Assembly: GCF_002176815.1 (NCBI RefSeq)
Contig: NZ_CP021648.1
Location: forward strand, 4,011,001-4,075,000
Length of the DNA: 64,000 nt
DNA from: Acidovorax sp. T1
GTDB lineage: Bacteria; Pseudomonadota; Gammaproteobacteria; Burkholderiales; Burkholderiaceae_C
Reading direction: 5' to 3'
Shown here: positions 30,309 through 38,869 of the stretch, piece after piece
How positions within the stretch are numbered: the first letter of the stretch is position 1
How the letters are laid out: every line of letters begins with the position of its first letter
Translations under genes and position numbers: made by a program
The notes under the pieces: generated by a model
Databases searched by the model: none
Seen by the model: the letters and a program-made list of their open reading frames with translations, nothing else
Told to the model about the DNA's origin: nothing

Positions 30309-30923
30309 ATGACCGTCCCCGCCACCAAACCACAGTTCGATGCCCCGTCCTACCTCGCCTGGGAGGCCGAGCAGCCCGAAAAACACGAATACCTCGATGG
30401 CGAAGTGTTTGCCATGGCCGGAGCCTCCGAATCCCATGTCACCCTGGCCGGCAACCTGTTCATGGCCCTGCGCAACCACCTGCGGGGCAGCCCGTGCAGC
30501 GTCTTTATCTCGGACATGAAATTGCAGGTGGAGGCCGACAACGCCTTCTTCTACCCCGACGTCTTCGTTACCTGCGCCGAATCCGACCGCGCCCACAGCC
30601 ACTACAAGGCCGCGCCCAGCCTGGTGGTGGAAGTGCTCTCGCCCACCACATCGGCCTACGACCGGGGCGCCAAATTTGCCGCCTACCGCAAACTGCCCAG
30701 CCTGCGCGAATACGCGCTGGTGGACACGGAACGCCTGAGCATCGACCTGTTTCGCCGCGACGAAACCGGCCACTGGGTGCTGTACCCGTCTGAGGGCGGG
30801 GACACGGTGGAATTTGCCAGCGTGGGGCTGAACGTGGCGGTGGATCGGGTGTATGAGGACGTCAACATGGAGGAAAAAGAATCTCCGTTGAATGATGCTC
30901 AGACCTCAATATCAAGAAATTAA
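30309..30923 (+). CDS. Uma2 family endonuclease-like protein
   Basis: 204 residues from ATG 30309, with GGAG upstream. The PD-(D/E)XK-fold core of Uma2 (DUF820) is visible: PEKHEYLDGEVFAMAG, the FYPDVFV strand with the catalytic aspartate, and PSLVVEVLSPTTSAYDRGAK with Glu and Lys. These proteins are widespread in variable regions, and their role is unclear. The last codons run into the first copy of the AATTGGGGTCAGA-type repeat, so the natural C-terminus may have been replaced. Confidence 0.88.
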   Translation: MTVPATKPQFDAPSYLAWEAEQPEKHEYLDGEVFAMAGASESHVTLAGNLFMALRNHLRGSPCSVFISDMKLQVEADNAFFYPDVFVTCAESDRAHSHYKAAPSLVVEVLSPTTSAYDRGAKFAAYRKLPSLREYALVDTERLSIDLFRRDETGHWVLYPSEGGDTVEFASVGLNVAVDRVYEDVNMEEKESPLNDAQTSISRN

Positions 30924-30942
30924 TTAGAATCTGACCCCAATC
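30922..30942. repeat. GGGGTCAGA repeat, copy a
   Basis: AATTAGAATCTGACCCCAAT, minus orientation; overlaps the Uma2 stop. Confidence 0.8.
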
Positions 30943-30947
30943 TTTTC

Positions 30948-31046
30948 CTGCTGATACAGCGTGGCTGGCCGCAGAAACTCAGTTGCGCCCCGTTGATAAG
31001 GTGTTTGAGGCAATTAATAGGACTCTGACCCCCATTACGTTCTTTC
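30948..31046. repeat. 99-bp direct repeat, left copy
   Basis: Identical to 31889-31987 except for three bases. It begins CTGCTGATACAGCGTGGCTG and ends CCATTACGTTCTTTC, and contains a GGGGTCAGA-type repeat (b) at 31016-31036. A further partial motif TTGACCCCAATTG follows at 31047. With the right copy it brackets the ParDE pair. Confidence 0.9.
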
Positions 31047-31087
31047 TTGACCCCAATTGTTTCTTTGACTTGCTCGGCACAGGCCTG

Positions 31088-31381
31088 TCAAAAGACCACT
31101 CGCCGCACATCCTGGGCATGGTGCAAGACACGCAACACCGTGATGCCTTCATCGTCTGCCAGATAAAACAGGATATAGGGCGTTGAAGTAGGCCAACTGC
31201 GTACGCCATCAGCCAATTCTGGACGCGCTCGACCCATCAGCGGTTGAAGCAAAAGCGTATGGGTCTCTTCATCGATAGCATCCAACACGCGGTCGGCCGC
31301 TGGCTGGCTTTCCTCGGCAATATATAGCCAAGCCTCCAACAAATCGGTCTGCGCACTCTGTGCGAGCGTGACGCGAGCCAT
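31088..31381 (-). CDS. RelE/ParE family toxin
   Basis: 97 residues, the normal size for the RelE/ParE superfamily. The fold is indicated by LAQSAQTDLLEAWLYIAEES, the plasmid-type basic strand and the C-terminal ITVLRVLHHAQDVRRVVF. ParE members poison gyrase and RelE members cut mRNA; sequence alone favours ParE because of the antitoxin type. The start overlaps the antitoxin stop by one base (TGATG). Confidence 0.88.
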   Translation of the reverse strand: MARVTLAQSAQTDLLEAWLYIAEESQPAADRVLDAIDEETHTLLLQPLMGRARPELADGVRSWPTSTPYILFYLADDEGITVLRVLHHAQDVRRVVF

Positions 31382-31656
31382 CAGTCGGCGCCTGGTTTAG
31401 ACCGCAATACAGCCCGCCCCTGCGCCTTGATCGCCGTCATGTCCATTGCACTGACCCGACCGGCATGGACATCGGCCACACCCTGCGCGATGTCCGCTTT
31501 AAGCGAAGCAAAACTGGCGGCTTGTACGGCTTGATAGGTTTCAAACAGACGCAATGCCTCACGAATGACTTCACTCGCGGAGCCGTACATGCCAGAGGCA
31601 ACATGGTCTCGCACACGGTTTTCAAGCTCGGCGGGCAGTGAGATATTCAGCGACAT
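31381..31656 (-). CDS. ParD-type ribbon-helix-helix antitoxin
   Basis: 91 residues from ATG 31656. It begins MSLNISLPAELENRVRDHVA with the SASEVIREALRLFE helix, the classic ParD/CopG DNA-binding fold, followed by a longer acidic tail that would neutralise the toxin. It is upstream of and coupled to the toxin. The longer open frame upstream crosses repeat copies c and d and is not likely coding. Confidence 0.9.
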   Translation of the reverse strand: MSLNISLPAELENRVRDHVASGMYGSASEVIREALRLFETYQAVQAASFASLKADIAQGVADVHAGRVSAMDMTAIKAQGRAVLRSKPGAD

Positions 31657-31831
31657 GGTGAGAACCCTTGGTGTTGTCAATCTCTGCCATTTTATGCCAC
31701 GCCCACACAAACGACCGATGATCCTTGCGTGTGCGGACTTCACCCAAGTTCTCCGGCTTGCTGCGCTTTTACGCAACCACTGCTGCGGCACGGCCCTCGA
31801 AGACGCTCTCCATGGGCTGTGTCGCAGAATC

Positions 31832-31852
31832 AATTGGAATCTGACCCCAATT
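31832..31852. repeat. GGGGTCAGA repeat, copy c
   Basis: AATTGGAATCTGACCCCAAT plus T, an inverted structure with arms AATTGG and CCAATT. Confidence 0.85.
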
Positions 31853-31888
31853 GTTTCCTCAACCCATGGGAGGCCCCATGATCGACCA

Positions 31889-31987
31889 CTGCTGATACAG
31901 CGTGGCTGGCCGCAGAAACTCAGTTGCGCCCCGTCGATAAGGTGTTTGAGGCAATTAATGGGAATCTGACCCCCATTACGTTCTTTC
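31889..31987. repeat. 99-bp direct repeat, right copy
   Basis: Right partner of 30948-31046; contains GGGGTCAGA-type repeat d at 31955-31977. Its last bases supply part of the tfpZ stop codon. Confidence 0.9.
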
Positions 31988-32819
31988 AAAATCCATCCAC
32001 GTGCACATATCCTCGCACACGGGCGGTGATGGGGTCTAACAGCACCACCCAGTCAGTGGCACGGCGGCTAACCAGAGGAAGCCAACGCAAGGCAATGGGA
32101 TCAGTTGTTTCTTCGGACTCACGGTTATTAATTGCGCTGACTACAGCGGCATCGATTAGCGCAGTTTGGCTTGGGTGTTTGGAGTGTAATTCAGGCAAAG
32201 GGCGAGCAAGTTGCAACACCTGCGGCACACTCAAAGCGTAGTCTTGCCACCAACTAAGGCGTTGGCTGGGTTCCACTCCTTGCAGCGATGCACTAATGCT
32301 AGCTAATTTTTCCTCCCCAGTGCGTGGATGGCGAATGCCAACAGTGCGTAGGCGTGACAAGCTCCATGGATGCGCCCACGTAGGTAACTTAGAGGCCTCG
32401 GTTTCATCCAGGTCAGCAAAACTAACCACCCTAAATCGATCAACCTCGTGCACCAACGCCACAGGACGGGCATAACTCATTGTGTTGACGCCGTAGCCCA
32501 GCGCCAGTAATTGAATGGCAGCAATCAGTGCTAAGTCGCGATGCAATTCGGTGCGGGGTTTCGTCGGATTGAAGAGCACCAACGTAAGCAGTGGGCCACA
32601 AACCACATCGACACTGACAATCAACCAAAACAGCTTTTCACCACCTAATATTTCACGCAAGGGCGAAGGAAACCAAATGCCGAATATCAGCAAGCCCACC
32701 AACCCTGCCACGGCAACGGATAACAGCAGATGAATAGTTGCAGCGCGCAGCGCGTGGGCACTGCGCTGTTTTAGCGATGCGGAAATCACATATGGATGGG
32801 TAAACACGGGCAAACTCAA
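31986..32819 (-). CDS. tfpZ: TfpX/TfpZ family type IV pilin accessory protein
   Basis: 277 residues. An N-terminal membrane region with about four helices (IHLLLSVAVAGLVGLLIFGI, WLIVSVDVVCGPLLTLVLFN, a helix near 100) is followed by a soluble domain with HEVDRFRVVSFADLD, the layout of TfpX/TfpZ. Family knowledge: these proteins are encoded next to particular pilin alleles and are needed for their assembly. It follows pilA on the same strand beyond a hairpin. The stop codon falls at the edge of the 99-bp direct repeat. Confidence 0.9.
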   Translation of the reverse strand: MSLPVFTHPYVISASLKQRSAHALRAATIHLLLSVAVAGLVGLLIFGIWFPSPLREILGGEKLFWLIVSVDVVCGPLLTLVLFNPTKPRTELHRDLALIAAIQLLALGYGVNTMSYARPVALVHEVDRFRVVSFADLDETEASKLPTWAHPWSLSRLRTVGIRHPRTGEEKLASISASLQGVEPSQRLSWWQDYALSVPQVLQLARPLPELHSKHPSQTALIDAAVVSAINNRESEETTDPIALRWLPLVSRRATDWVVLLDPITARVRGYVHVDGF

Positions 32820-32858
32820 TTTCAGGGGAGACGGTTAAGCTACTACGAGCGCCAACAA

Positions 32859-32885
32859 CAACGCCCGCAAGGGCGGGCGTTTTTT
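32859..32885. terminator. Hairpin between pilA and tfpZ
   Basis: ACGCCCGCAAGGGCGGGCGT followed by TTTTT on the plus strand and by GTTGTTGTT on the minus strand. For the minus-strand pilA message it could cause partial termination and so lower expression of tfpZ. Confidence 0.6.
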
Positions 32886-32914
32886 AAGCCAAAGCGCTAT
32901 TTAGCGCCGCCAAG

Positions 32915-33457
32915 TTAACGGCATTCAGCTGGCGCATACTTGGAGAGCAACGTGGCACCATTAGTTGCACCAAGGATCGCCGCCTTGTCATCGGTGTAGC
33001 AAGTCCACACGATTGGGCCCACAGGCGGAGTGCCTGCAACCAACAGTGCTCCGTTAGACGATGGCCAAATTTGCAGCAAGTTGCTAGCAGCAGGAGCAAT
33101 AGCCGTCGAAAACGCAACGGCAATCATGCCATTGGCAGTGGTACCGGTAATGGTTGCGATGTTTTTCGTGGGAGCTGTCTGAACACAGGTGCCTGCGGCG
33201 GCACACAAAGTGGGCGCAGCAGCAGTGCCTGTAGTCATACCAGCAAACAGACCACCGGATGCATCAGCAACGGCATTAGCTGCATTGTCGGCAACGGTCG
33301 CCTTCAACGCACTACCCAAAATCAGGCCTTCAGAGACTTTAGCGCGGATTGTGTAGTCCTGATAAGCAGGCAAAGCCACAGCCGCCAAAATACCAATGAT
33401 CGCCACAACGATCATCAATTCGATCAGGGTAAAACCCTTTTGCAGATTACGCTTCAT
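32915..33457 (-). CDS. pilA: Type IV pilin (major pilin, PilA-like)
   Basis: 180 residues. A short leader MKRNLQKG is cut by prepilin peptidase before Phe9; the mature N-terminus [20 protein letters not shown] has the essential Glu5. The globular domain is low-complexity and variable, with a C-terminal disulfide loop from Cys in WTCYTDDK to the Cys in PAECR. Start ATG 33457 has AAGGAG upstream. A sigma54-type promoter precedes it. With tfpZ it forms a pilin/accessory pair set in the accessory island. Confidence 0.95.
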
Positions 33458-33525
33458 AAAAACTCCTTGGAGGTCAATTGCAATTGAAAACCTGCAGAAG
33501 GATTCTCCAGGTTCGCAACAGCTGC

Positions 33526-33542
33526 AGCAGGTTCCGTGCCAG
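33526..33542 (-). promoter_or_regulatory. Sigma54 (-24/-12) promoter for pilA
   Basis: On the minus strand the sequence reads CTGGCACGGAACCTGCT, matching TGGCACG-N4-TTGC with one mismatch in the -12 element. It lies about 70 bases before the pilA ATG. Further upstream (about 33636-33663) are several TGTC/GACA motifs of the kind bound by PilR. Confidence 0.7.
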
Positions 33543-33683
33543 TGGGTGGGTGCAACAAGACGTTTCTGTCGCTTCTGGTTGTGGGGGCAATCGGCAGCGG
33601 GTTGTTGCTGCGGTGTCTTTGCGGCGGGTGTGGCTGACAATTTTGTCGTGACAGAAAGTGTCGCAAAGTGCGTTTTTGGAGGA

Positions 33684-33706
33684 GATTCGGGGTCAGATGC
33701 CAATTT
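33684..33706. repeat. GGGGTCAGA repeat, copy e
   Basis: GATTCGGGGTCAGATGCCAA then TTT, a diverged plus-orientation copy upstream of pilA. Confidence 0.65.
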
Positions 33707-33762
33707 TTGCTCCAATTGGCCTCAAGCCCTTATGCAGAAAGCGCTGGCAGCTATCAAAACAG
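33702..33762. repeat. Hairpin repeat (TAGCGCTT family), copy 9
   Basis: GGCCTCAAGCCCTTATGCAG, AAAGCGCTGGCAGCTATCAA and AACAGG; the common genomic repeat abutting the island repeat. Confidence 0.75.
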
Positions 33763-33785
33763 GTGCAACCTGCACCTCGAATCCT

Positions 33786-33948
33786 GCCCCGCCTGCAGCC
33801 AGAAAATGCCATGCGGCGCCCCGTTGCCGGGGGGTGTGATGGCATCGAAGCGGCGCACTTCTTTGCCGATCATCTCCGTCTCGGATGGCTTGGTGTGCGT
33901 GATGTCGATGGGACAGCGCTTGCCGGGGCTGAGTTGCGCCAGGGCGCG
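33786..33948 (-). pseudogene. 3' fragment of a metallo-beta-lactamase-fold gene
   Basis: About 160 bp are clearly homologous to the last 55 codons of the intact gene at 38870-39661 (shared translation includes ITHTKPSET and WLQAG), at roughly 80 percent identity by eye. No 5' part is present. Same orientation as the intact gene. It marks a past duplication or allele exchange at the island. Confidence 0.8.
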
Positions 33949-34022
33949 CGGTACAGAAAACGATGGGCGCCCACCTAGAACGCACCTTGGATGAACCCAT
34001 GGCGCGGCTCATGCCGCCGCCT

Positions 34023-34066
34023 CACAATTGCGCCACAATTGCGCCACAATTGCGCCACAATCGCGC
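34023..34066. repeat. Four 11-bp tandem repeats just before fic
   Basis: Three copies of CACAATTGCGC and one CACAATCGCGC run head to tail, ending one base before the fic ATG. The unit length is one helical turn and the TTGCGCCACAA phase is nearly palindromic, as expected of a cooperative operator. Confidence 0.8.
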
Positions 34067-34067
34067 C

Positions 34068-35465
34068 ATGGCACCCAAAATCGCGCCACTTACAGACCAT
34101 GCAAAGCCGGCTGATCTGCTGCGCAGCATTCAGAATGCCCCGGCCGGGTTAACGCTGGCGCAGTTGCTGGAGCGCCACCCCAGCGTGGCGCGCCGCACGG
34201 CACAGCGCTGGCTTGGCCAGTGGGCGGCCGATGGCAGCATCGTGGCGCAAGGCGCTGCGCGTGCGCGGCACTATCGCGCCGCAGCCATGCAAGGCGTGCC
34301 AGGCTTGGGCCCACATCCACGCTCAGGCCCAGACGGCTTCCCGGCCGCCATCCCGCTGTCGGCTGACAGCCTGGATGTTTTGGCTTACGTTGACCAGCCC
34401 CTGCAGGCGCGCAAGCCGGTGGGCTATCAGCGCGATTTTCTGCAGGCTTATCAGCCCAACCTGACTTGGTATCTGCCAGCACCACTGCGCCGCCAGTTAC
34501 ACCAGATGGGCCAAACCGCCGATGCACACGCGCCTGCGGGCACTTACAGCCGTGCTATCTTGAATCGGCTGTTGATTGATTTGTCTTGGGCGTCTAGCCA
34601 ACTGGAGGGCAACACGTATTCACGCCTGGATACGCGGGCGCTGATTGAGCATGGACAGGTGGCCGCTGGCAAGGCGGGCATCGAGACGCAGATGATCTTG
34701 AACCACAAATCGGCCATCGAGCTGCTGGTAGAGAACGCTGGCACTGCGCGCCTGGACCGCTACACGCTGATGAATTTGCATGCGGCACTGGCAGAAAACC
34801 TGCTGCCCAACCCGGCTGACGAGGGGCGTTTGCGCCAGCATGTGGTGGAGATTGGGCAAAGCGTGTTTCGCCCGCTGTCGGTGCCGCAGCAGCTCGATGA
34901 GGCGCTGAACGAACTGCTGGACAAGGCGGGGCAAATCAGCGACCCGTTTGAGCAGTCTTTTTTCATGCTGGTGCATGTGCCTTATCTGCAGCCTTTTGCG
35001 GATATCAACAAGCGCACCTCACGCCTGGCGGCCAACCTGCCGCTGTTTCGCGCCAATCTGTGCCCGCTCACTTTTGTGGATGTGCCCGAGCAGGCTTACA
35101 GCCGCGCCATTTTGGGCGTGTATGAGTTAACCCGGGTCGAGTTGCTGCGCGACGTGTTTGTCTGGGCCTATGAGCGCTCTACCCAGGAGTATCTGGCCAT
35201 CAAGCAAGACTTGGCCGAGCCAGACCCGACCCGGCTGGCCTACCGGGGTCTGATCAAGCAAACCATCCATGCGGTGGTGACGCACCTGGGCGGCGACGCA
35301 CTGGCCCTCATCGCGCAAGCCGTGGCCGCGCACGTGCCAGAAACCGAGCGGCCCGCAGTGCACGCGCTCATCGTGGAAGAACTGCGCCGCCTGCATGAAG
35401 GTGTGCTGGCGCGTTATGGGCTGCGGCCGTCGGAGTTTGCGGCGTGGCAGGCGGGTAAGGATTAA
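34068..35465 (+). CDS. Fic family protein with Gln in place of the catalytic His
   Basis: 465 residues. N-terminal helix-turn-helix-like region about 12-70 (LTLAQLLERHPSVARRTAQR). A class II inhibitory helix motif S-x3-E-G is at Ser176-Glu180-Gly181. The Fic core reads QPFADINKRTSR at 308-319, where AMPylating enzymes have HPFxxGNGRxxR: the catalytic histidine is Gln308 and the first glycine is Ile313. Either a different chemistry or loss of activity is implied. ATG 34068 is chosen because the reading upstream is the 11-bp tandem repeat. It is followed by a convergent VapBC pair. Confidence 0.88.
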   Translation: MAPKIAPLTDHAKPADLLRSIQNAPAGLTLAQLLERHPSVARRTAQRWLGQWAADGSIVAQGAARARHYRAAAMQGVPGLGPHPRSGPDGFPAAIPLSADSLDVLAYVDQPLQARKPVGYQRDFLQAYQPNLTWYLPAPLRRQLHQMGQTADAHAPAGTYSRAILNRLLIDLSWASSQLEGNTYSRLDTRALIEHGQVAAGKAGIETQMILNHKSAIELLVENAGTARLDRYTLMNLHAALAENLLPNPADEGRLRQHVVEIGQSVFRPLSVPQQLDEALNELLDKAGQISDPFEQSFFMLVHVPYLQPFADINKRTSRLAANLPLFRANLCPLTFVDVPEQAYSRAILGVYELTRVELLRDVFVWAYERSTQEYLAIKQDLAEPDPTRLAYRGLIKQTIHAVVTHLGGDALALIAQAVAAHVPETERPAVHALIVEELRRLHEGVLARYGLRPSEFAAWQAGKD

Positions 35466-35512
35466 ACCTATGGATCCGGCCCTGTGAAGTTTGACCCGCT
35501 CGCCCTGGGGGG

Positions 35513-35914
35513 CTATGACTGCTGCACCCAGTTTTCCAGCCGCAGGCCGGGCACCCGCTCGAACTCGCGTGTGTTGTGCGTGACCAGGGGCGCGTCCAGG
35601 CTGAGTGCGTGGGCGGCGATCATGGTGTCTAGGGCATCGATGGGTTGGCCTTGGCGCTCCAGGTTGGCGCGCAAGTCGCCATAAGCCCAGACCGCGTTGG
35701 TGTCGAAGGGCAGTATTTCCAGCGGCGCCAAAAACATCTCCAGTGCGGCCCTGTTGCGCGCCGAGCCGCTTTTGGCCACGCCGTAGGCCAGCTCTGCCGC
35801 CACCACGCTGCACAGGCCCACGTCGCCCAGGCGGTATTGGCGAAACCGCGCCAGCACTTCGGGTGGCCTGGCGTTGATGATGTAGATGCAAATGTTGGTG
35901 TCCAGCAGAATCAT
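35513..35914 (-). CDS. vapC: VapC-type PIN-domain toxin (pair 1)
   Basis: 133 residues from ATG 35914. PIN nuclease acidic residues are visible: Asp5 in LLDTNICIYII, Glu in VVAAELAYGV, Asp in DALDTMIAAHAL and Asn/Glu in THNTREFERV. VapC toxins cleave tRNA or rRNA. It overlaps its antitoxin by 4 bases (ATGA). Confidence 0.93.
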   Translation of the reverse strand: MILLDTNICIYIINARPPEVLARFRQYRLGDVGLCSVVAAELAYGVAKSGSARNRAALEMFLAPLEILPFDTNAVWAYGDLRANLERQGQPIDALDTMIAAHALSLDAPLVTHNTREFERVPGLRLENWVQQS

Positions 35915-36144
35915 GCGCAAATCTCGGGGCGCACCTGCTGTGGCGGCTGTTCGCGCGCAAGCACAAAGCCGGGCTCGAAAGCCGACAGGGCGGCTTCGAG
36001 GGTGTCCCAAGGGTTGTCCAGCGGCAGCAGCAGCACGCCGTTGCCGAAGTGTCGAACCCCGACATCGGTCCCTGTGAAACGAAATTCCTTGGGCAACCGG
36101 ACCGCTTGGCTGCGACCCGATTGAAAGAGACGGGCGGTTTCCAT
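35911..36144 (-). CDS. vapB: VapB-type antitoxin (pair 1)
   Basis: 77 residues from ATG 36144. METARLFQSGRSQAVRLPKE is the AbrB/SpoVT swapped-hairpin DNA-binding domain. The C-terminal tail should wrap around the toxin groove. It precedes vapC and overlaps it. An extension to 36174 is possible but unlike other VapB proteins. Confidence 0.92.
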   Translation of the reverse strand: METARLFQSGRSQAVRLPKEFRFTGTDVGVRHFGNGVLLLPLDNPWDTLEAALSAFEPGFVLAREQPPQQVRPEICA

Positions 36145-36180
36145 GGTGTGCCTTTGATCATTGATAATCACCAATGGTAG

Positions 36181-36474
36181 CTACTCTCTTGTGTTCCCGC
36201 AAACAGGGCAAGGCAAATTGGAGTCTGACCCCAATTTCTCCGGGCCAAATCCAAGCAGATCGGCATCGCGCGTTGGCCGATGTGGTTGGTCGTACCACAG
36301 TGAAAACAGCAGCGCGCCCTTGAGCAGGTAGTTGGCGGCATGTGGCGAGATGGACAGCCGGTACAGCAGCCGCTCTAACCCGAAGTGGGTGAGCGTGAGG
36401 TTGAAGTCTTGCTTCGTGGCATCGGCGCGCTGCTTCAGGCGGGCGCGGATGGAGGCAGCCAGGTTGCGGCTCAT
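36181..36474 (-). pseudogene. Truncated AbiEii/AbiGii-type nucleotidyltransferase toxin
   Basis: The 97-codon open frame matches the first part of AbiEii-like toxins (RADATKQDFNLTLTHFGLER and KGALLFSLW with the nucleotidyltransferase core RPTRDADLLGF). After about residue 79 it is cut off exactly by GGGGTCAGA repeat f, which codes for the alien tail KLGSDSNLP and a few more residues. Family members have about 280-300 residues, so the toxin is probably dead. Its ATG overlaps the antitoxin stop (ATGA). Confidence 0.85.
36216..36237. repeat. GGGGTCAGA repeat, copy f
   Basis: AATTGGAGTCTGACCCCAAT then TT, at the breakpoint of the AbiEii-like gene. Confidence 0.85.
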
Positions 36475-37091
36475 GCCACGATGCTTTCCAGATAAGGCCG
36501 CATGACATTGGCCACGCGATCCACGGTGGCGTAGCGCCAGAGCGCATCCATCGTCAGCTTGCGTTGTGACCAGCCATCGCGCAGCGCTTCCAGCGCCACG
36601 TCCAGGCCGATTTTGTTGCGGTATTTGAAGCAGTCGGCCACTGTTTTGGCCGCGTTGTACACGGGCACCTGCACGCCATCAATCGTGACCGTTTCGATGC
36701 CTTCGGTCAAAGCCGCCCCCGACATGCGCACCACGCGCAGCGCCGGTTGGTCCAGGCGGGGCGTGGGCGAATGGTGGGGGATGGCTGTCCAGACCTCGTG
36801 CGGTGCCTGCGTGCCGATGCCGTGGACACGCAGCGCCGACAGCAGGCACACCACGCCACGCGGCACACGCAGGGCGACCTCGGCCAGAGACCGGTGCTCG
36901 CTGAGCACGCGCCCCGGCAGGCTGTAAACGCCGCGGGCGACACGCTCGAGCTTGCCGACGGAGACCAGGCGGCTGAGAACCACTGTCGGAAGGCCCTGCC
37001 CAGCGAGATCGCGCGCACGCATGAGCGGCTGGCGCTCAGCAAGCGCCAGGACGGCTTGTTCGAGCGTGGTGGATTCCGAGCTGGGTGTCAT
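36471..37091 (-). CDS. AbiEi-type antitoxin / transcriptional regulator
   Basis: 206 residues. N-terminal winged helix (LMRARDLAGQGLPTVVLSRL and LERVARGVYSLPGR) and a C-terminal domain of the AbiEi_4 type (CLLSALRVHGIGTQAPHEVW, then PVYNAAKTVADCFKYRNKIG). In type IV toxin-antitoxin pairs AbiEi represses its own operon and counteracts AbiEii. The antitoxin is intact here although the toxin is truncated. A perfect palindrome lies 23 bp upstream of the start. Confidence 0.9.
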   Translation of the reverse strand: MTPSSESTTLEQAVLALAERQPLMRARDLAGQGLPTVVLSRLVSVGKLERVARGVYSLPGRVLSEHRSLAEVALRVPRGVVCLLSALRVHGIGTQAPHEVWTAIPHHSPTPRLDQPALRVVRMSGAALTEGIETVTIDGVQVPVYNAAKTVADCFKYRNKIGLDVALEALRDGWSQRKLTMDALWRYATVDRVANVMRPYLESIVA

Positions 37092-37113
37092 GCGGGATTT
37101 TGTTGTAATTATT

Positions 37114-37135
37114 AGTCATTTGTCAACAAATGACT
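37114..37135. promoter_or_regulatory. Palindromic operator upstream of the AbiEi-type gene
   Basis: Perfect arms AGTCATTTGT and ACAAATGACT are separated by CA. The site overlaps AT-rich promoter-like sequence (TAATAAT on the minus strand), as expected for autorepression by AbiEi. Confidence 0.75.
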
Positions 37136-37154
37136 TGATAATGGAAACCCAAAA

Positions 37155-37193
37155 AAATTGGGGTCAGGTTAATTGGGGTCAGATTCCAATTTT
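37155..37193. repeat. GGGGTCAGA repeat, double copy g
   Basis: AAATTGGGGTCAGGTT directly followed by AATTGGGGTCAGATTCCAAT, the two best plus-orientation copies in tandem. Confidence 0.88.
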
Positions 37194-37278
37194 GCTGGGG
37201 CAGGTTTTTTAAGAATGCGGCCCACCCGACCCGCGCCCAGAACTGCATTGAGCCTACAAGCCCGCGCAGCCAGCGCAC

Positions 37279-37545
37279 TCAATGGCTGTGCAGCTTTTCT
37301 TGTAGCCAGACTTTGATGAGCGACTGGTAGGGCACGTCGCGCGCGTTGGCCGCCACTTTGAGTGAGTCCAGCAGGTGCTGGGGCAGCCGCAGAGAGATGG
37401 TCTTGGTGGTGGGCTTCAAGTTCGGCAGGGTGACTTTTGTGGCCTTCGACCAATCGAGATGCTCGGTCGAGCTGTGCGTTTCCCAATAGGCACGCTCTTC
37501 GGCCTCGTTGGCGAATGTGGGAATGGCTTTAGTGGGCTTGTTCAT
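37279..37545 (-). CDS. brnA: BrnA-type antitoxin
   Basis: 88 residues from ATG 37545. The middle is variable (EAEERAYWETHSSTEHLDWS is the BrnA signature). The C-terminal part KTISLRLPQHLLDSLKVAAN is a ribbon-helix-helix DNA-binding domain. It follows the toxin gene and overlaps it by 17 bp, the usual toxin-first order of BrnTA. Confidence 0.9.
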   Translation of the reverse strand: MNKPTKAIPTFANEAEERAYWETHSSTEHLDWSKATKVTLPNLKPTTKTISLRLPQHLLDSLKVAANARDVPYQSLIKVWLQEKLHSH

Positions 37546-37828
37546 AAATGGCTCGCTCCTTTCGGTGCATGTCCCGCGCTGAAATGACACGGATCAATGC
37601 GCCTGACTGGCGCAGGGTGAACGTGATGTGCAAAGCCCGCCCGTCGTCTGTCTTGCCCAGCGCATGAAGGCGAAGCTCTGTCTGACTGTGGTTCGTGTCC
37701 TCCACAAGTAACAACGGAGCGTTGAAAAATACTTGCTCAGCTTCTGCCATGGAAACACCGTGTTTGTCGTTCTTGCGGGCGTTACCGTCATCCCAGTTGA
37801 ATCCGGTGATGGTGCTGAAATCAATCAT
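37529..37828 (-). CDS. brnT: BrnT-type ribonuclease toxin
   Basis: 99 residues. Starts MIDFSTITGFNWDDGNARKN with the conserved NDKHGVSMAEAEQVFF region, then the RALHITFTLR strand and IRVISARDMHRKERAIYE, the RelE-like BrnT core with its catalytic arginines. It lies first in the operon; an AT-rich ATATTATCATCATAT region just upstream is the probable promoter and BrnA operator. Confidence 0.92.
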   Translation of the reverse strand: MIDFSTITGFNWDDGNARKNDKHGVSMAEAEQVFFNAPLLLVEDTNHSQTELRLHALGKTDDGRALHITFTLRQSGALIRVISARDMHRKERAIYEQAH

Positions 37829-37866
37829 ATTTGTATATTATCATCATATCAATTTCTTTAAAAATC

Positions 37867-37916
37867 GAAGAAATTGGGGTCAGACCCCCAAAGAAATTGG
37901 GGTCAGACCCCCATAG
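37867..37916. repeat. GGGGTCAGA repeat, double copy h
   Basis: Two copies of GAAATTGGGGTCAGACCCCC in tandem; GGGGTC-A-GACCCC is itself a hairpin. The second copy ends CATAGC at the left edge of a fic gene fragment. Confidence 0.9.
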
Positions 37917-38095
37917 CAGACCATGCAAAGCCGGCTGATCTGCTGCGCTGCATTCAGAATGCCCCGGCCGGGTTAACGCTGGCGCAGTTGCTGGAGCGCC
38001 ACCCCAGCGTGGCGCGCCGCACGGCACAGCGCTGGCTTGGCCAGTGGGTGGCCGATGGCAGCATCGTGGCGCAAGGCTCTGCGCGTGCGCGGCAC
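37917..38095 (+). pseudogene. Duplicated 5' fragment of fic
   Basis: 179 bp correspond to 34093-34271 of the fic gene with only three differences. They cover the N-terminal helix-turn-helix codons but not the Fic core. Repeat copies lie directly at both ends, and the fragment is open in frame with them (37874-38131), so a small DNA-binding protein could in principle be made. Confidence 0.88.
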
Positions 38096-38096
38096 C

Positions 38097-38123
38097 AGAA
38101 ATTGGGGTCAGACCCCCATAGCA
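38097..38123. repeat. GGGGTCAGA repeat, copy i
   Basis: AGAAATTGGGGTCAGACCCC then CATAGCA, nearly identical to copy h on the other side of the fic fragment. Confidence 0.9.
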
Positions 38124-38156
38124 CCCTCTGACTTGCCGTGGTGCATGCGATGGGGG

Positions 38157-38567
38157 TCACTTGTTCGTGCCGACCCAGTTTTCCACTTGCAGGGCGGGCA
38201 CCCTGGCGAACTCGCCCACGTTGTGGGTCACCATGACGAGCCCTTCGCTGCGCGCATGGGCCGCTATGTGCAGGTCGTTCACTCCAATGGGCTGGCCGAT
38301 TTTTTCCAGCCCGGCGCGGATGGCGCCGTAGTGCTGGGCCGCCTTGCTGCCGTAGGGCAGCACTTCAAGGCGGCTGCAAAAGTCTTCGATAACCGCCAGG
38401 TTTTCGCTGACCTTGCTGCTTTTTTCGGCGCCGTGCATCAGCTCCGACAAGGTGATGGCCGATATGGCCATGCGGCCGGCGTTGGCGTTAAAGATCGGCA
38501 TGACCTCGACGGGGCGGCGCTTCACAACGTAGATGACGATGTTGGTGTCGAGCAGGTAGCGCAGCAT
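38157..38567 (-). CDS. vapC: VapC-type PIN-domain toxin (pair 2)
   Basis: 136 residues from ATG 38567. PIN motif residues: Asp in YLLDTNIVIYVV, Glu in ITLSELMHGAEKS, Asp in GVNDLHIAAHARS and the THNVGEFARVP end. Only moderately similar to pair 1, so not a recent duplication. Start overlaps the antitoxin stop by one base (TGATG). Confidence 0.93.
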   Translation of the reverse strand: MLRYLLDTNIVIYVVKRRPVEVMPIFNANAGRMAISAITLSELMHGAEKSSKVSENLAVIEDFCSRLEVLPYGSKAAQHYGAIRAGLEKIGQPIGVNDLHIAAHARSEGLVMVTHNVGEFARVPALQVENWVGTNK

Positions 38568-38800
38568 CAGAGCGATTCCCGCTCTGCCTGGTGCTGGCTG
38601 GCGCGCTCTGGCATGAAGTCGTCGCTCACTGCAGGGCCGTTCAGAAAGAAGCTGTCCCATGTCTGCCCCACGGGGGAAATGATGCGCTCGTTGCCTTTGG
38701 CCCGCACTTCGACTTTGCGCACGCCGTCGGGCAGGCGCAGGTCGATGGGGATGCGGACGGCTTGCGTGCGGTTGTTGATGAAGACGGTGCTGATGGTCAT
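38567..38800 (-). CDS. vapB: VapB-type antitoxin (pair 2)
   Basis: 77 residues from ATG 38800. MTISTVFINNRTQAVRIPID is the AbrB-like DNA-binding hairpin. The C-terminal half (WDSFFLNGPAVSDDFMPERA) is acidic, typical of toxin-binding tails. It precedes its toxin and abuts the metallo-beta-lactamase gene. Confidence 0.92.
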   Translation of the reverse strand: MTISTVFINNRTQAVRIPIDLRLPDGVRKVEVRAKGNERIISPVGQTWDSFFLNGPAVSDDFMPERASQHQAERESL

Positions 38801-38869
38801 GGCCGCGCTCCTGGGCAAGGGTATATGGCGAAAGTATATGGCAACGGGTTGCCGTGCCACAGCTGTGCC

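Follow-up and report, generated by a model that had tools for sequence, protein, structure and literature searches.

A hairpin repeat very likely owned by a Y1 transposase separates toxin-antitoxin modules in Acidovorax sp. T1

A 64,000-nt stretch of the Acidovorax sp. T1 genome (contig NZ_CP021648.1, positions 4,011,001 to 4,075,000; hereafter the window) contains a run of toxin-antitoxin (TA) modules separated by copies of a short palindromic repeat with the core GGGGTCAGA. The repeat flanks the gene of a Y1 (HUH) transposase elsewhere in the same genome, the intervals between its direct copies are enriched in TA genes, genes end or are duplicated at its copies, and the module content of the locus differs between relatives. 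We tentatively propose that the transposase makes cassettes at its hairpin repeats and that the TA cargo is kept by addiction. The recurring tie between the repeat and many unrelated TA families gives the transposase a testable role and points to a possible new route by which TA genes spread and are kept. In the following, C1 denotes the contig of the source genome (G000), L a fetched locus and G a genome label.

The repeat and its transposase

Ten exact copies of GGGGTCAGA are present in the window, every one within 30930–38112, compared with a mean of 0.31 in shuffled sequences, and none of 100 shuffles reaches ten. The variant GGGGTCAGG at 37160 provides an eleventh copy, which agrees with the eleven copies that the initial annotation placed at 30.9–38.2 kb. 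When one mismatch is allowed, 23 matches are found in the window (12.8 expected), and the eight of these that fall outside 30.9–38.2 kb look like chance matches. The repeat had been described as confined to this segment, which holds for exact copies in the window but not for the whole genome, where 34 exact GGGGTCAGA occur. Judged by context, those outside the window comprise about 13 true copies and 11 chance matches, and 10 of about 23 true copies are packed into 7.2 kb of the 4.4-Mb genome.

The consensus over 261 copies is AATTGGGGTCAGATTCCAATT, a 21-letter hairpin, which bears out the palindromic nature of the repeat. On the AATTGGGGTCAGATTCCAATT strand, a stem of nine pairs is possible, with G opposite T at two of them (G-T wobble, in 244 and 201 of the 261 copies), whereas the complementary strand has A-C mismatches at these two positions. 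The free position is T or C in 235 of the 261 copies, both of which can pair with G; since most of the loci were fetched with a near-consensus pattern, which selected for everything but the free position and the extra copies, this position is the least biased evidence for the shape. DNA folding yields weak hairpins (-2.6 to -4.4 kcal/mol), and the full nine pairs are the best structure solely when the free position is C. Among the 36 positions before the hairpin, only the hairpin-adjacent one (T, 52%) exceeds 0.25 bit in the 261 copies. Rfam has no family at E ≤ 0.1 within 29.5–39.5 kb, and no stretch of viral contigs contains the motif. Two related palindromes of ~46 bp, at L017 (G000:C1:1043810-1043855) and L025 (near C1:2815690), start with GGGGTCAGA and end with TCTGACCCC or a near form, and are perhaps a separate repeat family.

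A profile search revealed three PF01797 (Y1_Tnp) matches in the genome, all of which lie outside the window, as expected from the initial annotation, which had seen no such transposase there. One match is a single gene at C1:773.1 kb that encodes a 234-aa Y1 (HUH) transposase with the motifs NHFH and YIDLNP (Y1_Tnp E 9e-10). In its fetched locus (L014), the gene occupies 1100–1804, with repeat copies at 1023+ and 1048+ upstream and an inverted copy at 1906- downstream. The genome search suggested earlier, for a Y1 transposase whose ends bear the motif, thus leads to this gene, and the loose link then drawn to REP-type Y1 transposases is borne out by its flanking repeats and by its close relatives in other genomes. 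The protein gives a weak phmmer match to the solved TnpArep 4er8 (E 0.0019). At E ≤ 0.001, Pfam profiles, as distinct from the profile of Quentin et al., detect only Y1_Tnp in it and no C-terminal HTH. The other two matches are 143-aa frames with an IS200-like look. They lack an exact GGGGTCAGA nearby (up to 200 kb away, or anywhere on their contig) and were rejected as owners of the repeat.

The transposase is present in 34 of the 36 genus genomes searched, and at 12 of 25 genus loci (L052–L076; protein identity 68–76%) a GGGGTCAG repeat lies downstream of it. Within the family, 231 of 250 genomes encode a homolog (E ≤ 1e-30) and 51 contain ATTGGGGTCAGANTCC, the reversed control of which gives no match. 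Forms with at least 64% identity, taken from the best matches only, are found in 45 of the 51 motif genomes versus 37 of the 199 motif-free genomes. All 29 genomes of the 250 with two or more motif copies have such a close form, and the six exceptions hold one copy each. The repeat therefore very likely belongs to the transposase, as its terminal repeat.

Toxin-antitoxin genes between repeat copies

A scan of species genomes provided at least 118 motif loci. By record title, 113 of these 118 are from Comamonadaceae, other Burkholderiales or Betaproteobacteria, and the other five are two Gemmatimonadaceae, two 'Proteobacteria' and one bin labelled Rickettsia typhi. The transposase lies within 22 of the 118 loci. 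Where copies are 0.4–3 kb apart without the transposase, TA pairs of unrelated families are frequent in between (mazEF, HTH-Gp49, HI1420-type, HigB, Xre-RES, hipBA, nucleotidyltransferase, ccdAB, BrnA and PemK). A second set of loci, chosen among the motif matches listed by motif spacing and blind to genes, holds two PIN pairs and a further single PIN gene, a PemK/MazF toxin and a HigB toxin accompanied by an HTH gene. At L260, six copies in the same orientation separate CopG-BrnT, PIN, ParD and NTP_transf_8/MazE genes.

Over 132 loci, the transposase-free intervals of 250–3500 bp are direct in 30 cases, convergent in 9 and divergent in 6; the intervals that hold the transposase are convergent in 11 of 12 cases, and the short pairs in 39 of 65. 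TA-type Pfam families account for 28 of the 51 predicted genes in the 30 direct intervals, compared with at most four seen among 138 control genes. TA genes occur in 15 of the 30 direct intervals (16 counting UPF0175), or in 11 of 20 by locus, the intervals of one array not being independent. The same intervals also hold other cargo: a pterin dehydratase, TatD, an aminotransferase, noncoding units and parts of a large gene. Among the 18 TA-holding intervals found, 15 are bounded by copies in the same orientation, a figure that may be inflated because the other intervals were partly scanned.

TA labels are Pfam matches on proteins predicted by a purpose-built gene finder that overlooked the tfpZ gene of the window. 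UPF0175, DUF6364, nucleotidyltransferases and any HTH gene adjacent to a toxin are counted as TA. The control genes lie more than 2 kb from a motif copy and derive from 150 drawn at random from 339, of which 12 frames at locus ends were omitted. No TA family appears among the 25 most frequent of the 200 control families. Single scans of 47 small control genes gave one match each to ParE, PIN, VapB and Phd/YefM, and a lone large TA gene among the remaining 91 would escape detection.

Relatives differ in module content at the same locus, as is evident from the comparison of the moaC-cpdA region that had been suggested earlier. Among 40 genus genomes fetched, 30 have the order moaC, pilA, MBL, 23 of them with tfpZ between, and the rest are without MBL or end early. 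Downstream of moaC, different modules are found in the nearest relatives: in G019, two repeat copies enclose a ParE-like toxin and its partner, and a 62-bp duplicate of moaC comes next; G027 has a BrnT-like toxin with an HTH gene, a 425-bp moaC copy and a MazF-like toxin, followed by the repeat; and G006 has a uma2 fragment and a FitB/VapC-like toxin ahead of the repeat. G061 has uma2, a 107-bp moaC fragment and, 2 kb further, a candidate HTH/RelE-like pair (our own reading; no solved relative). In G033, a vapBC pair adjoins MBL with a degenerate repeat. The partial moaC copies (62, 107 and 425 bp and another fragment; L212, L215, L216 and L220) lie beyond the inserted modules and look as if an insertion had duplicated target DNA.

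In one species of Extensimonas, two TA modules lie between repeat copies, and in another (G290) they are in the opposite order. A noncoding unit of ~320 bp occurs at no fewer than 33 further places in three Extensimonas genomes, and 24 of the 33 reach the motif end of the query. An all-against-all blastn for shared cassettes among the fetched loci gave 11 rows, chiefly of this unit. Three Extensimonas genomes also contain a separate repeat of ~184 bp (L097:1631-1814), with at least dozens of copies, some of which are adjacent.

Layout and joints of the array

The array in the window starts downstream of a Uma2 family gene (30309..30923, +; PF05685), whose stop codon is overlapped by repeat copy 1 (30922..30942, -). 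Copy 2 (31016..31036, -) and copy 4 (31957..31977, -) lie within a duplicated unit of 99 bp (30948..31046 and 31889..31987, +; 97% by self-comparison), which brackets parDE (31088..31656, -; parE 31088–31381, parD 31381–31656). Thus, a unit holding a repeat copy flanks this module on both sides, and copy 3 (31832..31852, -) was located with the exact pattern ahead of the second unit. The tfpZ and pilA genes (31986..33460, -) are usual here in the genus; tfpZ has no Pfam match and carries the name given by the earlier reader. Sequence comparison shows that the region of the MBL 3' end is present a second time in diverged form (33681..33942, -), in the stretch that separates pilA from fic and far away from the intact MBL gene; it is 78% identical to its G033 counterpart. 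Copy 5 (33685..33705, +), found by pattern search, is degenerate. The fic gene (33963..35465, +) contains a short tandem repeat with an 11-bp period (CACAATTGCGC) at 34023–34066, within its annotated start, and the true start may lie downstream of the annotated one. The first vapBC-type pair (PIN and MazE-type; 35513..36144, -) follows.

The abiE pair (36181..37091, -) encodes AbiEi of 206 aa and an AbiEii cut to 97 aa (44 of 238 profile positions), which terminates at copy 6 (36216..36236, -). A Variovorax plasmid carries an abiE pair with 87% identity to this one, in which the AbiEii gene is full-length; the 3.9 kb fetched from the plasmid contain no GGGGTCAG. The homology (36239–37141) begins 3 nt past copy 6 and ends 14 nt before copy 7 (37156..37168, +), a half copy of the form GGGGTCAGG revealed by the mismatch search, and abiEii stops at the repeat. 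A search of plasmids gave 208 records; fic, abiE and brnTA homologs are among the 15 listed. Copy 8 (37171..37191, +; exact pattern) and copy 9 (37872..37892, +; the GGGGTCAGACCCCC form, pattern search) lie on the two sides of brnTA (CopG-type antitoxin and BrnT toxin; 37279..37828, -). Between copy 10 (37895..37915, +; pattern search and self-comparison) and copy 11 (38100..38120, +), which share 27 identical nt around the repeat, sits a 179-bp internal piece of the nearby fic gene (37917..38095, +; a 98% copy of 34093–34271). The second vapBC-type pair (38157..38800, -) completes the array, with its PIN match above and its MazE-type match below the cut-off. Pfam confirmed the initial gene calls Uma2, ParE, ParD, pilin, Fic, two PIN, two MazE-type, AbiEi, AbiEii, CopG antitoxin and BrnT.

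Similar joints are observed elsewhere. In a second TA island of the same genome (L195; G000:C1:3379000-3388000), the toxin genes with partners comprise two that are HigB-2-like and one that is BrnT-like. The island also holds two transposase-like genes (E 4e-10 and 4e-9 over residues 75–131) that carry NHYH or YVDLNP motifs and are absent from the PF01797 matches; one of them, at C1:3382 kb, extends as far as a repeat copy, where it ends. The sections of PMC6006769 consulted assign NHYH and YVDLNP to subclass 2.3. A PIN-like gene of Extensimonas perlucida has its start at a repeat copy and encodes 95 aa versus 152 aa in a congener; no solved relative of it was found and the PIN label is our own. 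The repeat likely marks the joints of rearranged modules.

Possible origin of the array and known systems

According to our proposal, the transposase would cut and join single-stranded DNA at the hairpins, probably at replication forks. DNA between two copies could then be excised, inserted as a copy at a different site or linked to a further copy of the repeat. The cargo would be arbitrary, and a unit between copies in the same orientation could easily be lost again; TA-bearing units would persist because their loss poisons the cell. Over time, this process could build arrays in which the repeat divides unrelated TA modules; the 3' end of moaC would be one permissive site for them. Parallels exist with the TA cassettes of integrons and with retention in IS200/IS605 elements. 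A bolder version, in which a domesticated HUH/Y1 transposase and its hairpin repeats constitute an integron-like cassette system in Comamonadaceae, with direct repeats that delimit exchangeable units and addiction that stops TA loss, appears somewhat unlikely. If true, this version would provide a concrete role for one of the RAYT-like genes, which are widespread and functionally unexplained.

Several observations weigh against the proposal. A transposase homolog is encoded by 231 of the 250 family genomes, and just 51 contain the repeat. Half of the direct intervals (15 of 30, or 14 if UPF0175 counts) have no recognised TA gene, and the difference in TA content between direct (15/30) and other intervals (3/15) is weak and not significant (p=0.06), the latter value being a lower bound because genes of unscanned intervals, some of them convergent or divergent, count as non-TA. 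TA enrichment is not seen near motif copies in general: the families of 206 motif-near genes (of 221 in the near set), as represented by the 25 most frequent of 142 and of 116, are mostly ordinary. Our claim is therefore limited to transposase-free intervals with copies 250–3500 bp apart. Homologs of brnTA (19 loci) and parDE (4 loci), which were searched for in 399 family genomes, have no full repeat copy in either flank (~1.5 kb, or less near a contig end), and their homology to the window breaks off about 20 to over 100 nt before the repeats; a weak partial repeat match lies beside such homologs at L274 and L280. These TA modules therefore do not depend on the repeat. The initial annotation had regarded the repeat as a recombination or integration site that brackets interchangeable TA units; the bracketing is real and recurs elsewhere with unrelated TA families, but the repeat itself is no more than a putative site of this kind. 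The two Extensimonas TA modules in G290 also have no exact repeat copy alongside. No event was observed, and no empty site with a clean single repeat turned up, although no systematic search for one was made.

The main rival explanation is that dispensable TA islands tolerate insertions, and that the transposase scatters its repeats there without the modules moving along. TA islands gather insertions, TA modules homologous to those of the window occur elsewhere without the repeat, and the repeat also occurs as solitary copies or closely spaced inverted pairs, the families listed for motif-near genes being mostly ordinary. However, abiEii, the fic piece and the transposase-like and PIN-like genes end at the repeat with other DNA beyond, which argues against this explanation because a simple insertion would leave both gene halves. 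In addition, TA-holding intervals are mostly in the same orientation (15 of 18, with the others partly scanned), in contrast to the convergent short pairs (39 of 65), and a motif-ended unit recurs as a unit. We consider passive scattering of the repeat doubtful.

Alternatively, the transposase would only spread the repeats, and RecA-dependent or replication-slip recombination at the repeats or at duplicated DNA would later swap the modules. The longer direct repeats that flank parDE (99 bp, 97%), the partial moaC copies (62, 107 and 425 bp) and the MBL 3' end copies beside modules are consistent with such swapping. In contrast, the repeat is just 21 bp, and the breaks at abiE and at the Extensimonas PIN-like gene sit at the repeat edge, where no longer shared sequence is seen. 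Recombination of this kind is unlikely to explain the array.

It is very improbable that the hairpin is kept as a terminator or insulator against read-through between TA operons: some copies sit on or just after stop codons (uma2 and the gene before the transposase), but others lie upstream of genes (abiEi, brnT) or inside predicted genes, and the DNA hairpin is weak. The idea that the repeat is an attC site and the array an integron cassette array, to which the integron integrase encoded at C1:2242.6 kb and the TA cassettes held by integrons lend some appeal, was rejected as barely credible, since the integrase is about 1.8 Mb from the array, no GGGGTCAGA lies within 120 kb of the integrase gene, and the attC core (GTTRRRY/RYYYAAC) is neither enriched nor fixed around the repeat (16 matches in 261 flanking windows, about 48 expected with uniform base use). 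The integrase gene itself (G000:C1:2242631-2243593, L295) matches TIGR02249 with 465 bits.

Our proposal, in which the transposase makes the cassettes, has counterparts among known systems. Mobile integrons and superintegrons likewise have promiscuous, TA-rich cassette arrays with one site per cassette and single-strand hairpin sites; in contrast, the repeat here is a different one without the attC core, and no integrase is nearby. IS200/IS605 elements share the HUH Y1 enzyme, strand-specific hairpins and same-strand ends, whereas the repeat-bounded units here have no transposase of their own and carry TA modules as cargo. Like GTAG REP/RAYT systems and REPINs, the repeat is a transposase-linked imperfect palindrome with close inverted pairs, but the 261 copies have no GT[AG]G foot at the hairpin, and arrays in the same orientation carry gene cargo.

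The traits of the transposase at C1:773.1 kb fit TnpA-Y1 subclass 2.1 (Bertels group 1, as given in PMC6006769), and it appears to be subclass-2.1-like: it has 234 aa compared with a median of 238, NHFH and YIDLNP, and, according to the consulted sections of that paper, the subclass is prevalent in Betaproteobacteria among others. In those sections, no REP-like sequences are reported near the subclass, in contrast to the flanking repeats observed here. For the C-terminal HTH-like domain of the subclass, Pfam profiles at E ≤ 0.001 give no match in our protein. The same sections of Quentin et al. 2018 (PMC6006769) state that subclass 2.1 is probably equivalent to the TIRYTs that Di Nocera et al. 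2013 described. TIRYTs, or TIRtrons, are described in the consulted part of PMC3733652 as RAYT-like Y1 transposases flanked by repeats that share GGGGWSAS and that are single, dimeric or grouped. The genome of Acidovorax sp. T1 has a Y1 transposase gene, flanking inverted repeats that fit GGGGWSAS and repeats of the same family elsewhere. Because GGGGTCAG fits GGGGWSAS, the repeat belongs to a described kind. The difference is that grouped copies here separate TA modules, whereas the main text of PMC3733652 has no word beginning with 'toxin'. No link of TIRYT- or RAYT-type repeats with TA genes was found in the titles and abstract openings listed from the open literature searched, a coverage that excludes most subscription journals. 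The comparison suggests that the repeat itself is of a known kind and that its link with TA genes is the new part.

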